In this document: positions 11,758-17,223 of the stretch, one piece after another
Numbering within the stretch: position 1 is the first letter of the stretch
Layout of the letters: the number at the start of each line of letters is the position of its first letter
Assembly: GCA_030649935.1 (NCBI GenBank)
Contig: JAUSFN010000026.1
Span: forward strand, 124,001 to 188,000
DNA: 64,000 nt
Direction of reading: 5' to 3'
Source of the DNA: Candidatus Planktophila sp.
GTDB taxonomy: Bacteria > Actinomycetota > Actinomycetes > Nanopelagicales > Nanopelagicaceae
Translations under genes and position numbers: made by a program
Notes under the pieces: generated by a model
Database searches by the model: none
The model's input: only the letters and a program-made list of their open reading frames with translations
Told to the model about the DNA's origin: nothing

Positions 11758-11791
11758 ACCCGTCGCCGTATACCTGTTCGGCTTATAGTGA
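11758..11791. repeat. Left inverted repeat bounding the hipBA cassette
   Basis: The sequence from ACCCG (11758) through GCCGTATAC (11765-11773) and CTGTTCGGCTTATAGTGA (11774-11791) recurs in reverse complement at 13796-13834. The 18-nt and 9-nt blocks are exact; the right copy has 4 extra bases between them. Each copy has a short internal GCCG...CGGC palindrome. Confidence 0.85.
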
Positions 11792-11824
11792 TGATGCGGT
11801 AGCGCATTTTGGGTGAAATGACTT

Positions 11825-11864
11825 AACCCCTAGTTTTCTCTAACGAGAGCACTAGGGGTTATTT
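11825..11864 (+). terminator. Rho-independent terminator of the rpsF operon
   Basis: AACCCCTAGT (11825-11834) pairs perfectly with ACTAGGGGTT (11851-11860). The 16-nt loop contains its own CTCT-AACG-AGAG stem, and ATTTTCTTT follows. It can end transcription from rplI; the stem is symmetric and could also serve hipA from the other strand. Confidence 0.85.
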
Positions 11865-11938
11865 TCTTTGGAAAAACTAAGAGATTCTTGATTGTGGTTG
11901 TTAATGAAGTTAATCACTTCATAACTAAACACTTACAT

Positions 11939-13285
11939 TCAAAAACGTGCAGGGATACCGCGACCATTCATAGATACAACACATAAATTTGCCTGTTTGG
12001 TGACACGTTTCAATAGGTCTTTTGCAAACTCAAAATCATCCTTACTCAGTATTTCACTTGGTAGAGCGTCTATAGCTAGCTTCATAGCTTTTGGCGTGTT
12101 TGAAATAACTTCCAAAACTACGGATTTAGTTTTTTCCTTATCAAGTCCATTTTCCTTGGCGAGAAGTTCCCAATCAACGCCTGTAATTTGCCGGAGTTTT
12201 GGCGTAGTCCCAATTTTCATAGCCAATTCACCGTCATGGATGCTGATCTTTCCGGGTGCTATGTTGCGAACCTCTGACACCTCATAAGGAAGTATGCTGT
12301 TAAGGTCATAAAGAGGGGCTAACCGAACATCTGCACCGGATAGCAAGAGGCCGTAATTCTTGGCATGAGCGTCAGTCCCACCAATCACCCATGCTAAGGC
12401 TAAGGCGCTAATGAATTGCCAATTCGCTTCCTCAGCATGTAGTGGGTTCATTACCCTCTTAAATAGACTAATTATTTCCTTTGTTCCAGGTCCTGGCCCA
12501 GGACCTCTATCAGCCTCATACTTTTTCAAAGAGCTCAAACCAAGTGCCTGACATAAATCCTCTTGGTGAACACGAATTAATCCTGTGGGCGAATGTGATC
12601 GATCAAATCTCTCAACAACAAGTGCGCGCTTCGTCCCAAACATCCTGATCTCACTATGTGCCGTCGGTATACCCACCCCTGCAGCAGTGGCTAGACAGAG
12701 ATGTTCGTTTATTTCTTGGTGTGCCCAGGATTTACTTGGTGGTTTAATAATATGGGTTGTGGGTTCTGAGCCCCAAGGCTCACCCCACTGTGAGCCATCT
12801 AGTCTAAGTGCGGTTTTAGGTTGAGCGCCCGGGAGGGAGAATTGGCCCTGGCGGGTAGTCGCATTCCATGCAGCTGGATCATTTTCGAGAACTTCTAATC
12901 TAGTCTCGATTTCCTTTATTGATAGCTTTTCTATGCCACCTGCCTTAAGGTGCGGTAGTTCTTTTTCCGGTACGAACTGAACAGCACCTGCAACATCTCG
13001 CCCAACATGTTCCATTAATGCAAAGGGATTCTTAGGTGATACTTTGTATTGCGCTCCCCATCTAGCCAGGACTGCTTCGTTATCTGGCAGTAGGTTATTT
13101 AGCCAGTCATTAATAATCCTTCCTTTATGTACCGCTTGTGCTACTGGCATTGATAAGGAAAGGGGTGTTGGGCTGGGGAGTGCTTGGTAGGCGGCCTCAT
13201 ATTGAAAACTTATGATCCCATGACGATCTTGCGTTAGTCTGCCCGAGATCTTTCCTCCGATTACTACCAGAATTTCCTTACTCAT
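11939..13285 (-). CDS. hipA: HipA-type serine/threonine kinase toxin
   Basis: HipA-family kinase of 448 residues. HipA toxins phosphorylate targets such as glutamyl-tRNA synthetase and cause growth arrest. The N-terminal couple_hipA-like domain contains LPTPLSLSMPVA-type sequence and LLPDNEAVLARWGA. The kinase core has SLPGAQPKTAL (ATP-binding region near residue 150), HQEDLCQALG, the catalytic loop GGTDAHAKNYGLLL (near residues 299-312) and the Mg-binding APLYDLNS. All key residues look intact, so the toxin is probably active. It follows hipB by 2 bp on the same strand. An odd Gly-Pro run (GPGPGPGT) sits in the kinase lobe. The cassette interrupts a conserved ribosomal/replication neighbourhood and is bounded by inverted repeats, which points to acquisition. 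Confidence 0.93.
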   Translation of the reverse strand: MSKEILVVIGGKISGRLTQDRHGIISFQYEAAYQALPSPTPLSLSMPVAQAVHKGRIINDWLNNLLPDNEAVLARWGAQYKVSPKNPFALMEHVGRDVAGAVQFVPEKELPHLKAGGIEKLSIKEIETRLEVLENDPAAWNATTRQGQFSLPGAQPKTALRLDGSQWGEPWGSEPTTHIIKPPSKSWAHQEINEHLCLATAAGVGIPTAHSEIRMFGTKRALVVERFDRSHSPTGLIRVHQEDLCQALGLSSLKKYEADRGPGPGPGTKEIISLFKRVMNPLHAEEANWQFISALALAWVIGGTDAHAKNYGLLLSGADVRLAPLYDLNSILPYEVSEVRNIAPGKISIHDGELAMKIGTTPKLRQITGVDWELLAKENGLDKEKTKSVVLEVISNTPKAMKLAIDALPSEILSKDDFEFAKDLLKRVTKQANLCVVSMNGRGIPARF

Positions 13286-13287
13286 TT

Positions 13288-13701
13288 TTACACGTGGTAC
13301 TTACTGAGTACGTCATCAAGTTTCGGATTTCCATTTGCATCTTCAAGACCTGCTTGAGCTTTACCAGTGACTTCTAATCTCGTCTGGCCATGGGTTGCGT
13401 GAGAGGTAGGCTTTAGATTCTTCGGGGCTTTAGTGATCTCAGCGCGAGGGCTGCGCTTTTTGCTTGGTTTGTCTTCACCAAGATTTGCAGGATCCTCGAC
13501 AGTTAATTGTAAATTCATACCAAGAACGCTGACGAGGCGCAGGACAGTATCCCAGCTAGGGTTAGACTTTCCCTGCTCTAGGGTTACCAGCGAAAATCTG
13601 GACAAACCTGCCTTTTCGGCTAAATCTGTTTGTGTCCAACCTTTATTTTTTCGGGCAGCAAGAACGGCTTGTCCCAGCGCAGCCTGACTTGTCATCTCCA
13701 T
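13288..13701 (-). CDS. hipB: HipB-type XRE antitoxin/repressor
   Basis: DNA-binding antitoxin of 137 residues. The XRE helix-turn-helix covers about residues 8-65 (VLAARKNKGWTQTDLAEKAG, LSRFSLVTLEQGKSNPSWDT). A Lys/Pro/Ser-rich linker follows and then a short C-terminal segment ending DDVLSKYHV. It should neutralise HipA and repress its own promoter, as in known hipBA operons. AGAGAGG lies 8 nt before the ATG. Upstream are two exact direct copies of a 15-bp element and a short inverted repeat, likely operators. Confidence 0.9.
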   Translation of the reverse strand: MEMTSQAALGQAVLAARKNKGWTQTDLAEKAGLSRFSLVTLEQGKSNPSWDTVLRLVSVLGMNLQLTVEDPANLGEDKPSKKRSPRAEITKAPKNLKPTSHATHGQTRLEVTGKAQAGLEDANGNPKLDDVLSKYHV

Positions 13702-13718
13702 TTGAGTACCTCTCTGTT

Positions 13719-13797
13719 AGAACCTATACAGTTCTGTGGGAGCTTACTTTGTCAAGTATACTACACATTCTAATATTGTAAGGTATACTACACATTC
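13719..13797 (-). promoter_or_regulatory. hipBA promoter and candidate HipB operators
   Basis: GTATACTACACATTC occurs twice in direct orientation, 27 bp apart (13756-13770 and 13783-13797). On the minus strand the nearer copy abuts TTGACA (-35-like), and about 19 nt further is TGTATA (-10-like). AGAAC-N7-GTTCT (13719-13735) overlaps the -10 region. This arrangement fits an autoregulated antitoxin promoter. Confidence 0.6.
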
Positions 13798-13834
13798 ACT
13801 ATAAGCCGAACAGGGTTGTATACGGCGGGTTTTT
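13796..13834. repeat. Right inverted repeat bounding the hipBA cassette
   Basis: TCACTATAAGCCGAACAG (13796-13813) and GTATACGGC (13818-13826) are exact reverse complements of blocks at 11774-11791 and 11765-11773; the GGTT between them is absent on the left. It abuts the second HipB operator copy on one side, and on the other is followed by GGG and seven T, which could act as an outward terminator. Confidence 0.85.
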
Positions 13835-14764
13835 TTATTTCTCCGTTACATGGACCAATGCATCTCGAAAATACCCACTCGTAAACTCACTTCGGGCTAG
13901 ATCGTATTTAGCCATTCCCCACTCCCAGAAATCAAAGTCGAGCTCTGAGACGGAGCTTTGAATAGAAGCCCACAAACTCCATCCATACTTTGCAACTAAG
14001 GCCCACAACCATGCGCGTGCGACTTTATCGGGACGGTACTGCCCGTAATAAGCAGTTACTAATTCTTCCAGAGCATCTAAAGGTAAGAATGCTTCAGCCC
14101 AGACATTGCCAATCTCAAAGCAGGCATCATTATTTCCTGAGTATTCGTAGTCGATTAACCAAATCTTTTCACCATCATCAATGAAGTTGCCCGGCAGTAA
14201 GTCGTTGTTGCATGGAACAAGACCGTCAATTAAAACCGTAAAAGCTCTTTTTATTTCATCTATCTGAGGTGCAAAATTTAAGTAGCCATCAGGCATTCTA
14301 AATCCCTGCGACTGCACGATACCTAAGTAATTTTTCTGAGTGGTGAACATGTTAAATTCATGATCAAAGAGATCAAGTGAATGCAAAGCACGTAAACTGT
14401 GTGCAATGCGGCTCAGATTTGATGCGACATCATCGGGACCAAATGTCTTGCCTTCAATATAGGAGATAAGCAAAAGCCCTTCGCCCGGTAGATAATCTAG
14501 AACTTGCGCACCTACTCCGCCTTTTCCGGCAATCGTTGAGTTAACAAACTCAGAGCCGCGATCGATGGCTAGAAGCGAGGAAGAGTTGCTAGATACACGG
14601 GCAACGAATTTTTCCTCTGGGGTTTGAATGAGAAAATTCCGATTCGTTAGGCCACCCGAGAGTTCACTAATAGAGATTCGAGAGCGAAGCCTTTCAACCT
14701 TGTCAAAGAGTTGAGCGAATTCACGCTCCAACTCACTGGCATCACTCACCTGTTCAGGATACAT
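13835..14764 (-). CDS. Choline-kinase/aminoglycoside-phosphotransferase-fold kinase
   Basis: Soluble kinase-like protein of about 309 residues. The N-terminal lobe has ISELSGGLTNRNFLI, typical of choline kinase/LicA enzymes. The catalytic region is PCNNDLLPGNFIDDGEKIWL followed by IDYEYSGNNDACFEIGN; the first Asn replaces the usual His of HNDLxxxN, but the catalytic Asp and Asn are present, as is the Mg-binding Asp of IDYEYSG. The ATG at 14764 is chosen over an upstream TTG at 14803, which lies inside the divergent gene. That divergent gene encodes a dimethylglycine/sarcosine dehydrogenase-like enzyme, so choline or another methylated amine is an attractive substrate, though this is inference. 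No Shine-Dalgarno is seen. Confidence 0.8.
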   Translation of the reverse strand: MYPEQVSDASELEREFAQLFDKVERLRSRISISELSGGLTNRNFLIQTPEEKFVARVSSNSSSLLAIDRGSEFVNSTIAGKGGVGAQVLDYLPGEGLLLISYIEGKTFGPDDVASNLSRIAHSLRALHSLDLFDHEFNMFTTQKNYLGIVQSQGFRMPDGYLNFAPQIDEIKRAFTVLIDGLVPCNNDLLPGNFIDDGEKIWLIDYEYSGNNDACFEIGNVWAEAFLPLDALEELVTAYYGQYRPDKVARAWLWALVAKYGWSLWASIQSSVSELDFDFWEWGMAKYDLARSEFTSGYFRDALVHVTEK

Positions 14765-14772
14765 TTGAAGGC

Positions 14773-17223
14773 GTGTCAATGTCAGTAGTGCCAAGCAGAG
14801 CAAAAATCGTCATTATCGGAGGCGGTGTTGGTGGGACCTCTGTTGCCTATCACTTAGCCGAACTTGGTGAGAAAGATGTAGTTCTCCTAGATCGCAATGA
14901 GTTAACAAGCGGATCTACTTTTCATAGCGCCGGTCTGGTGGGTCAACTGCGTGCCGATCCAACCCTGACGTTAATGAACATGCACTCTGTAGATTTATAT
15001 CGAAAGCTTCAGACAACAGACACGCCTCCAAGCTGGCGCGAGTGTGGCAGCATTAAATTGGCCTCCTCGCCCGAGCGCATGCAAGAGATTCGCCGCCAAA
15101 TTGGATGGGCTAAGACTTTTGGTCTGGATTTACATGAGATTTCACCTCAAGAGGCGCAGAACCTTTTCCCACTTATCGATTTAGATGGCGTTGTCGGTGC
15201 CTGTTATATGGGCTCTGATGGCCAAGTAGATCCTTCCCAGTTAGCGATGGCGCTGGCAGCAGGTGCACGCAAGAACGGTGTGCAGATATTTACCCATACC
15301 CGCGTTTTAGAAATTAAAACAATGAAGGGTCGAGTCAGCAACGTTGTCACCGATAAAGGTGAGATCGAATGCGAGATAGTTGTTAACTGTGGCGGAATGT
15401 ATGCACCACACATCGGCCGAATGGTGGACGTGCGAATCCCTATTGTTCCAATGAGCCATCAATATTTAATTACCGACAATTTTATGGCCGAGGATGCACC
15501 ATTCTTGCCATCACTGCGCGACCCAGACAATCTCATCTACTTTCGTCAAGAGGTTTCGGGCTTGCTCATGGGCGGATACGAGCGAAATTCAAAGGCGTGG
15601 TCGGCCGATTACAATAATGTAGATGACATTCCCACAAACTTTAACAATACGTTGCTGCCTGAAGATTGGGATCGATTTTACGACATCGCTGAAGCTTCAC
15701 AAAAACGCGTTCCTAAAATGGCCGAGGTTGGGATTAAAAACTTTATTAACGGCCCCGAAGGCTTTACTCCCGATAATGAGTTCTGTCTAGGTGAAACTTC
15801 GGTCGGCGGATTTTTCGTTGCCGCTGGTTTCTGTGCCCACGGAATCGCTGGCGCCGGTGGAATTGGAAAATCCGTTGCCGAATGGATCGTTGCCGGAGAA
15901 CCAACTATGGACTTATGGCACATGGATATTAAACGCTTTGGTGCATCCTATGAATCACCTGAATTTACATTGCAGCGCATTACTGAAAACTATGAAGAGT
16001 ATTACGACATTCACTACCCTGGCGAAGAACGAAAAAGCGCACGTCCAAAGTTCACATCCCCTGTCTATGGATGGCACAGCGCTAATGGCGCAGTTTTTGG
16101 TGAAAAAGCCTCGTGGGAGCGCGTTAATTACTACTCAACCAATAGCGGCGATGAGGCTCTACGCCCTATTGGATGGCTTGGAAAAAACTGGTCATCTGCA
16201 GTTCAAGTAGAACACCATGCAACACGAAACGCTGCAGGCTTATTTGATGAGTCGAGTTTTGCCAAAGCACGCGTTACTGGAGTTCGAGCTTCTGAGTTTC
16301 TAAACTTTGTCTGTGCCAATAATGTAGTTAAAGGTGTTGGCAAAACGGTTTACACGCAAGCGCTCAACTCAAAGGGCGGAATCGAATCTGATTACACCGT
16401 TACACAAACTGGTGACAACGAGTTCATGATTATCACTGGCACAGCCTTTGCAACGCATGATTTTGGTTGGCTAGAAAAAATCCGTCGGGAGTTTAATTTT
16501 GATGGAGTGGAGATTACAAATATCACTCATGAACTAACCTGCTTTGGAATTATGGGACCAAATTCCCGCGCGATTTTGCAATCACTGACAACTTCCGATT
16601 TGAACCACAGCGCTTTTCCATTTATGGGTTCTCAGGAAATTACTCTTGCAGATATAAAAGTTCGTGCAACTCGGATTACATATGTTGGCGAGCTCGGTTG
16701 GGAGATTTACGCACCAGTTGCAGATGGGTTAAATCTTTGGAAAGAGATTATTGAGGCTGGACGAGATTTAGGTTTAATCCCCTGTGGTTATCGTGCTATT
16801 GAATCCTTACGTTTAGAAAAAGGTTATCGTGCATGGGCAGGTGAGATTAATACTGAAACCAATCCTTATGAAGCCGGTCTTGGCTTCGCAGTTTCGCTAA
16901 AAAAAGATAACTTCCACGGGAAAGCTGCAGCGGTTGAAGCTAAGGAGAATCAAACAAGAAAGCTTGTTGCAATTACTTTCGACGACATAACATCGGTTCC
17001 CTTTGGCTCTGAGCCGATTCGAATAAATAACAACATAATTGGACGCATTAAATCCGGTGGTCAGGGCTACACGATTAATAAAGCCATCGCTTACGCATAC
17101 TTACCGATCGAACACACTGGGCCAGGAACGGCCGTTGAGGTTGAGCTCTTTGGGATATGGTCTGCCGGAGAAATCGCCGCGGAACCCCTTTTTGATCCAG
17201 ATAATGCTCGAATACGCACATAA
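14773..17223 (+). CDS. Dimethylglycine/sarcosine dehydrogenase-like FAD oxidoreductase with GcvT domain
   Basis: Two-module enzyme of 816 residues. The N-terminal DAO-type FAD domain has GGGVGGTSVAYHLAELG (near residues 14-30) and the STFHSAGLVGQLR segment that contacts flavin in dimethylglycine and sarcosine dehydrogenases. After an FAO-type middle region, the C-terminal half is a GcvT/aminomethyltransferase fold (HELTCFGIMGPNSR, ELGWEIYAP, then GYRAIESLRLEKGYRAW and NPYEAGLGFAV), which binds tetrahydrofolate. Likely role: oxidative demethylation of a methylated glycine with the C1 unit captured on folate. The GTG at 14773 has TACATT 7 nt upstream (14760-14765); ATG 14779 is an alternative. 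It is divergent from the choline-kinase-like gene. Confidence 0.88.
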   Translation: MSMSVVPSRAKIVIIGGGVGGTSVAYHLAELGEKDVVLLDRNELTSGSTFHSAGLVGQLRADPTLTLMNMHSVDLYRKLQTTDTPPSWRECGSIKLASSPERMQEIRRQIGWAKTFGLDLHEISPQEAQNLFPLIDLDGVVGACYMGSDGQVDPSQLAMALAAGARKNGVQIFTHTRVLEIKTMKGRVSNVVTDKGEIECEIVVNCGGMYAPHIGRMVDVRIPIVPMSHQYLITDNFMAEDAPFLPSLRDPDNLIYFRQEVSGLLMGGYERNSKAWSADYNNVDDIPTNFNNTLLPEDWDRFYDIAEASQKRVPKMAEVGIKNFINGPEGFTPDNEFCLGETSVGGFFVAAGFCAHGIAGAGGIGKSVAEWIVAGEPTMDLWHMDIKRFGASYESPEFTLQRITENYEEYYDIHYPGEERKSARPKFTSPVYGWHSANGAVFGEKASWERVNYYSTNSGDEALRPIGWLGKNWSSAVQVEHHATRNAAGLFDESSFAKARVTGVRASEFLNFVCANNVVKGVGKTVYTQALNSKGGIESDYTVTQTGDNEFMIITGTAFATHDFGWLEKIRREFNFDGVEITNITHELTCFGIMGPNSRAILQSLTTSDLNHSAFPFMGSQEITLADIKVRATRITYVGELGWEIYAPVADGLNLWKEIIEAGRDLGLIPCGYRAIESLRLEKGYRAWAGEINTETNPYEAGLGFAVSLKKDNFHGKAAAVEAKENQTRKLVAITFDDITSVPFGSEPIRINNNIIGRIKSGGQGYTINKAIAYAYLPIEHTGPGTAVEVELFGIWSAGEIAAEPLFDPDNARIRT

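Follow-up and report, generated by a model that had tools for sequence, protein, structure and literature searches.

We believe that positions 11773-13814 of the window, the 64,000-nucleotide stretch of Candidatus Planktophila sp. DNA analysed here, are very probably a transposon with terminal inverted repeats (TIRs) that lacks a transposase and carries a hipBA toxin-antitoxin pair. Our best reading is an element of the mobile insertion cassette (MIC) kind, and the confidence expressed here belongs to this core claim and not to the further proposal that the element is targeted to hairpins. An earlier note on this DNA, made from the sequence alone, had suggested a small non-autonomous mobile cassette, and that suggestion gains support from the 16 relatives in which rplI was located, all with the site uninterrupted, from duplication of the target, and from the presence of like ends around different cargo in two other genomes.

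The element is bounded by an exact inverted repeat of 19 nt, CCTGTTCGGCTTATAGTGA, located by a repeat search of the window at 11773-11791 (left, plus strand) and 13796-13814 (right, minus strand). At up to 3 mismatches only 0.01 TIR matches are expected in the shuffled window, confirming that the inverted block flanking hipBA is real. The ends carry CCTGTTCGGCTTATAGTG, are the same in the sister element of G010 and nearly the same in that of G281 (both described below), and in the window enclose 2,042 bp of DNA. The earlier note had described an 18-nt plus 9-nt block as a single repeat. Both parts are present, but they do not form one joint repeat, the 9-nt part (GCCGTATAC at 11765-11773 and GTATACGGC at 13818-13826) having a separate origin in the arms and loop of a split rplI terminator. 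The claim that the block occurs nowhere else holds for the window's own genome (G000; 1.82 Mb, 42 contigs), in which the unmismatched 18-mer has just the two window copies, both flanking hipBA, with three additional matches when 3 mismatches are permitted. The GC content of the element (0.45) equals that of the host (0.456), and its composition thus gives no sign of foreign origin.

The host gene upstream of the insertion is rplI, encoding ribosomal protein L9 (11296-11742, plus strand; Pfam Ribosomal_L9_N and _C), and the convergent neighbour on the far side is a choline-kinase-like gene (13835-14803, minus strand; Pfam Choline_kinase). Outside the 19-nt repeats the flanks read ACCCGTC-GCCGTATA on the left and GTTGTATA-CGGCGGGTTTTTTT on the right. 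The left arm of the host terminator, ACCCGTC (11758-11764, plus strand), and its right arm, CGGCGGGT with a T-run (13823-13836, plus strand), are identified from the window sequence, from folding of the rejoined site (-13.6 kcal/mol) and from the loci of relatives. We located rplI in 16 of the 24 same-genus relatives searched, and the empty-site counts rest on these 16. In every one a terminator hairpin stands unbroken 3' of rplI, and no exact TIR core occurs at the locus. The stem comprises at least 13 unbroken pairs (G-U counted) in 15 of the 16, that of L027 being imperfect. The relative with the closest rplI (93%) is G010; there, by eye, GGCCCGTCGCTTATGCGGCGGGCTTTTTT comes after the gene, with the kinase gene next. 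Because all 16 relatives keep the hairpin whole and without the TIR core, the GCCG...CGGC palindrome must be read as the host terminator cut in two: the sequence is present as the earlier note described it, but it belongs to the arms of the rplI terminator and not to the repeat. Alignment with the empty site, the check which that note had proposed, thus reveals an uninterrupted terminator at all 16 loci where rplI was found, and the TIR core is missing from these loci.

These comparisons bear directly on a different reading, in which the repeats are bidirectional or paired terminators that insulate hipBA and are not mobile ends at all. The outer parts are indeed terminator arms, and there is an extra hairpin inside the left end; however, whole terminators in 16 of 16 relatives stand without the TIR core beside them, and the TIR recurs at other loci, with other cargo and with target duplications, which leaves this reading scarcely credible. 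The outward-facing terminator pairs envisaged in the earlier note do not hold in that form, the GCCG...CGGC halves being one split host terminator while the element's terminator-like hairpin lies inside one end. A general caution follows: part of an inverted repeat flanking an insertion may be a split host hairpin.

Within the transposon, hipA (11939-13285, minus strand) is an uninterrupted frame for a HipA-type kinase toxin of 448 aa (Pfam HipA_C 6.6e-47, Couple_hipA 3e-22), and hipB (13288-13701, minus strand) encodes a helix-turn-helix antitoxin of 137 aa (Pfam HTH_31 and HTH_3; NCBIfam couple_hipB E 1.5e-16, under the curated cut-off). The two genes lie on the same strand with that for the helix-turn-helix antitoxin upstream of that for the HipA kinase, the arrangement of a type II HipBA system. 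The hipA product aligns with E. coli HipA (2wiu; E 4.2e-47), including VERFDR, TDAHAKN and YD, which we take to be the key motifs of the kinase. Because these motifs are present, the kinase looks intact, and on sequence grounds it would be expected to act as a toxin. Upstream of hipB are two 22-nt direct repeats with GTATAC cores (family D2; 13749-13797, minus strand), their starts 27 nt apart, that are likely to be HipB operators; the outer one touches the right TIR, and the hip promoter region starts almost directly after that TIR. At a threshold of 50 aa, the other open reading frames of the element range from 55 to 96 aa and overlap hipBA on the opposite strand. As the earlier note had stated, no transposase lies between the repeats, in the sense that neither hipA nor hipB matches one in Pfam, the frames of 55-96 aa falling outside that search. 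Within the genus, HipA relatives occur in 2 of 135 genomes, the window's own and G105 (partial, 31%), and among 60 genomes sampled from genus to class there were six with a match, the best besides the window's own being G055 at 43%. None was confirmed in the viral contig collection (viral_contigs), 1,891 plasmid records matched at less than 60% identity each, and blastn of the whole element returned zero matches in phages or plasmids.

The TIR pair is found in only 3 of 296 family genomes, and is therefore not the widespread ordinary terminator that the earlier note had considered: besides the window's own genome, it is present in G010, of the same genus, and in G281, of another genus. The elements measure 2,042 bp in the window, 1,658 bp in G010 and 2,366 bp in G281, and the cargo between their like ends differs. 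That of G010, which sits between rplA and rplJ, encodes a nucleotidyltransferase-domain protein of 210 aa (Pfam Polbeta 5.5e-08; PADLOC candidate PDC-M05A 4.1e-09; NCBIfam MntA antitoxin E 9.9e-06, under the cut-off) and a 133-aa partner that matched nothing in Pfam, NCBIfam or PADLOC and nothing meaningful in the PDB. On a plasmid of Rhodococcus qingshengii (L162), a homologue of the partner is encoded directly after a nucleotidyltransferase gene, and this pair lies near a McrC gene and an IS5 transposase. Its recurrence in such company suggests that the nucleotidyltransferase and its partner form a defence-like two-gene module. Before the G010 nucleotidyltransferase gene (L049:4060-4130) a unit of about 22 nt (ATGTGAGAACTATAATACTC) is, by eye, repeated three times in tandem, and these copies may be operators of the gene. 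The G281 element carries a 522-aa zinc-finger protein with six DUF4379 stretches, together with one of 155 aa that matches DUF4234 below threshold; a GIY-YIG-like protein end in G281 reaches an E of only 0.2. Pfam detected no transposase among the six main cargo proteins of the three elements.

Each of the three elements is flanked by an 8-bp target-site duplication, perfect in G010 (TCGCTTTC/TCGCTTTC) and G281 (TATTGCGA/TATTGCGA) and imperfect in the window, where the left copy, GCCGTATA (11765-11772, plus strand), spans the hairpin loop and is identical at 6 of 8 positions to the right copy, GTTGTATA (13815-13822, plus strand). When the sites are rejoined with one copy of the duplication they fold at -13.6 (window), -27.7 (G010) and -22.6 kcal/mol (G281), with z scores of -2.9, -6.8 and -5.9, and the centre of the duplication lies 0.5, 1.0 and 0.0 nt, respectively, from the hairpin dyad. 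All three insertions are therefore at a hairpin apex. In the window, 0.56, 0.20 and 0.08% of all positions are no more than 1 nt away from the dyad of a stem of at least 8, 9 and 10 pairs, respectively, so that at random the chance of three apex sites in three comes to about 2e-7 or less. This value is too favourable, in that the apex rule was formed post hoc and intergenic location is itself under selection. The sample consists of three elements, one per genome. For comparison with the G010 element, G061 and G066 by eye have a whole, similar terminator-like hairpin after rplA; the remaining relatives compared differ from G010 downstream of that gene. The left flank of the G281 element is limited to 35 nt of contig, and no alignable empty site was found for it, G298 and G296 carrying different sequence there.

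The same data could be produced by a TIR transposon with no targeting of hairpins, one that inserts at random and that selection, in a compact genome, leaves only in terminators, where most of the dispensable intergenic DNA is found. This account contains the same core claim as ours, and the two are not exclusive; we consider it possible, if rather doubtful. In its favour, the stretch from the rplI stop to the convergent gene in G010 leaves little besides the terminator (by eye; the stop-to-stem distance for rplI is 15 nt), and an unrelated IS-like repeat in the window's own genome also starts inside an apparent rplA terminator. Intergenic selection alone, however, does not predict that all three insertions should fall no further than 1 nt from the dyad, and insertion could have occurred at many other bases, both between rplA and rplJ in G010 and to the right of the G281 element. 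Insertion in a hairpin also resembles the use of folded attC sites and the behaviour of group IIC introns, and this likeness, together with the different cargo between like ends, might point to site-specific integration of an integron-cassette-like or tyrosine-recombinase element. Against this, the ends are inverted, the 8-bp duplication is a different one at each site, and Pfam finds no integrase among the six main cargo proteins, so that we regard such integration as very unlikely. An integron gene cassette in particular was rejected, since it would have directly oriented attC sites and the ends here are inverted.

The ends of the transposon have internal structure as well. Directly inside the left TIR is a subterminal region common to the sister elements (GCGCA.TTTT ... 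AATGAC..AAC; 11792-11828, plus strand; alignments A1 and A2), and within its conserved AATGAC..AAC sequence begins the element's own terminator-like hairpin (11824-11861, plus strand; inverted repeat I2), which is followed by TTTTCTTT. A hairpin of this kind is located inside one end of all three elements, with fold z scores of -6.0 in the window, -4.75 in G010 (L049:2940-2972) and -3.36 in G281 (L057:104-136). Comparison of the two strands of the window hairpin places the better post-stem T-run on the strand of the rplI transcript, the direction not being clearly single. In the window and in G010 the hairpin sits at the side where the ribosomal-protein transcript enters; in G281 it does not face the transcript that, judging from the T-run, would arrive there, an orientation that suits a role in replacing termination less well. 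Five of the six ends align across 58 model positions, TIR counted, and the match of the window's right end is limited to the first 20, without subterminal sequence beyond the TIR. Model R1 was built from the subterminal region, and its re-finding of 11792-11828 is by construction. Rfam gave no match around the window element or in L057, and no tRNA was found in L057.

Further copies were sought at several levels of stringency. With up to 2 mismatches, any TIR match occurs in 7 of 296 family genomes; the single hits in G272 (inside an open reading frame) and in G075, G144 and G242 (sequence judged by eye) were treated as chance, as were matches inside open reading frames in G010:C53 and G258. 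At 3 mismatches 79 of the 296 genomes matched, a frequency that by eye is similar to that of a reversed-pattern control, and a scan for the core CGGCTTATAG in 18 regions from this search gave no further pair with this TIR. The exact 17-mer is present in eight stretches of the genome_contigs collection, two of which are G010 and G281; L060, L065 and L067 are single matches in unrelated bacteria, and L061, L062 and L063, judged from the listing, were set aside as well. In viral_contigs the exact 18-mer has no further copies and the gapped end pattern 0 matches. The end-model search took 16 candidates per genome under strict filters, with which weak copies can be lost, and at the level of the order it covered 296 genomes, equal to the family count. 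An insertion sequence with these ends was found neither in genome_contigs (17-mer) nor in viral_contigs (18-mer) nor in the 296 family genomes, among whose 3-mismatch hits a part were opened.

The search for a transposase by profile covered the ISL3 and DDE_Tnp_1 families. ISL3 exceeds the cut-off in 2 of 296 family genomes (G290 and G287), DDE_Tnp_1 in 0 of 296, with one weak match under the cut-off in G021, and neither does so in G000, G010 or G281, of which the latter two are incomplete assemblies. An ISL3 origin of the ends, suggested by the TIRs of that family, is not supported, the full ISL3 copy in G290 having no such TIR; nor is an IS4-type origin supported by the DDE_Tnp_1 search, with none of the 296 over the cut-off.

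Among known elements, the MICs offer the nearest parallel. According to PMC3913671, MIC231A1, mic-qnrD and the qnrS2 cassette have inverted repeats and passenger genes, no transposase nearby and, usually, a target duplication, and MIC231A1 moves by means of the IS231A transposase, supplied in trans. The elements of the window, G010 and G281 are alike in being bracketed by inverted repeats around passenger genes with no transposase among the six main cargo proteins, and in their target-site duplication, which is 8 bp long and perfect in two of three cases, 6/8 in the window. They differ from MICs in the family of their ends, the 8-bp length of the duplication, the hipBA and other passengers, the insertion at a terminator apex and the possession of a terminator-like hairpin of their own. 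TIMEs and Tn3-derived non-autonomous transposons, as PMC4133298 describes them, are similarly non-autonomous and mosaic, with inverted ends, but produce duplications of 5 or 6 bp in AT-rich DNA, whereas here they are 8 bp and in hairpins. The same paper defines MITEs as small (about 30-300 bp) and multicopy (PMC4133298), and the 2,042 bp of the window element and its single pair of ends in the genome rule that class out. Toxin-antitoxin pairs also ride on Tn3-family transposons, where they are reported to belong to the transposition module (PMC7157771); the window element has no transposase. ISPpu9 of Pseudomonas putida (PMC8450116) is reported as an intergenic insertion sequence in REP palindromes, with its own transposase and a single repeat family as target, in contrast to the three unrelated terminators entered here by elements without one. 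According to PMC11658703, a terminator near one end of an integrative and conjugative element insulates the element's genes from host transcription. The window element is, by contrast, a TIR cassette; we infer by analogy with that system that its hairpin would have a similar role, with the addition of replacing the broken host terminator. We recognised no description of this cassette family among the open-licence PMC matches listed, judged by titles and the starts of abstracts.

Taken as a mobile cassette, the element suggests the following pathway. A transposase acting in trans would bind the ends, mobilise the cassette and, by a cut staggered over 8 bp, place it at the tip of a rho-independent terminator hairpin, perhaps through recognition of the hairpin itself. 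Landing in the rplI terminator would have broken it, and the element's own hairpin, being the first met by rplI transcripts, most likely takes over termination and most likely keeps read-through out of the hipBA operon, which lies antisense to it. The hipBA pair, in turn, may stabilise the cassette through addiction. We give roughly even chances to a more general model for compact actinobacterial genomes, in which transposase-less cassettes are inserted by an enzyme that recognises the terminator apex, their toxin-antitoxin or defence-like modules are exchangeable, and the cassette's own terminator replaces the one it breaks, such that ribosomal-protein operons are still terminated. The tip of a terminator would in this context be a route by which such modules enter compact genomes without harm to host genes, and if the enzyme does target hairpin apices, it would represent a structure-guided transposition system with a directly testable target rule.

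Other repeats were also encountered at terminators and in intergenic DNA. An IS-like repeat end, TGAACTGAACCCCGAAAGTTGGA, which we take to be IS3-like, is found at three contig ends of the window's own genome: L195 (start of G000:C33), L216 (end of G000:C14) and L194 (start of G000:C32). The C33 copy starts inside the apparent rplA terminator, and the C14 copy follows a terminator-like arm, GAGACCCCGGCGCAA. Because IS-like ends are also at terminators, terminators may be general safe harbours and not the preference of this element alone. In G005 (L130) the neighbourhood after rplA is different and includes a long hairpin-like stretch, GAACCTGCTCCTTCGGCGGGC..., and the junction after rplA thus varies among relatives. 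A dispersed intergenic motif, CCGGCTTATAGGGCGACTCTTCTT, is present in L079-L086 (G227, G176, G160, G178, G243, G114, G144 and G308), on both strands and in places a short way upstream of a start codon or downstream of a stop, with up to ten copies in 10 kb (L079, allowing 5 mismatches); this motif and the TIR have the 10-mer CGGCTTATAG in common.
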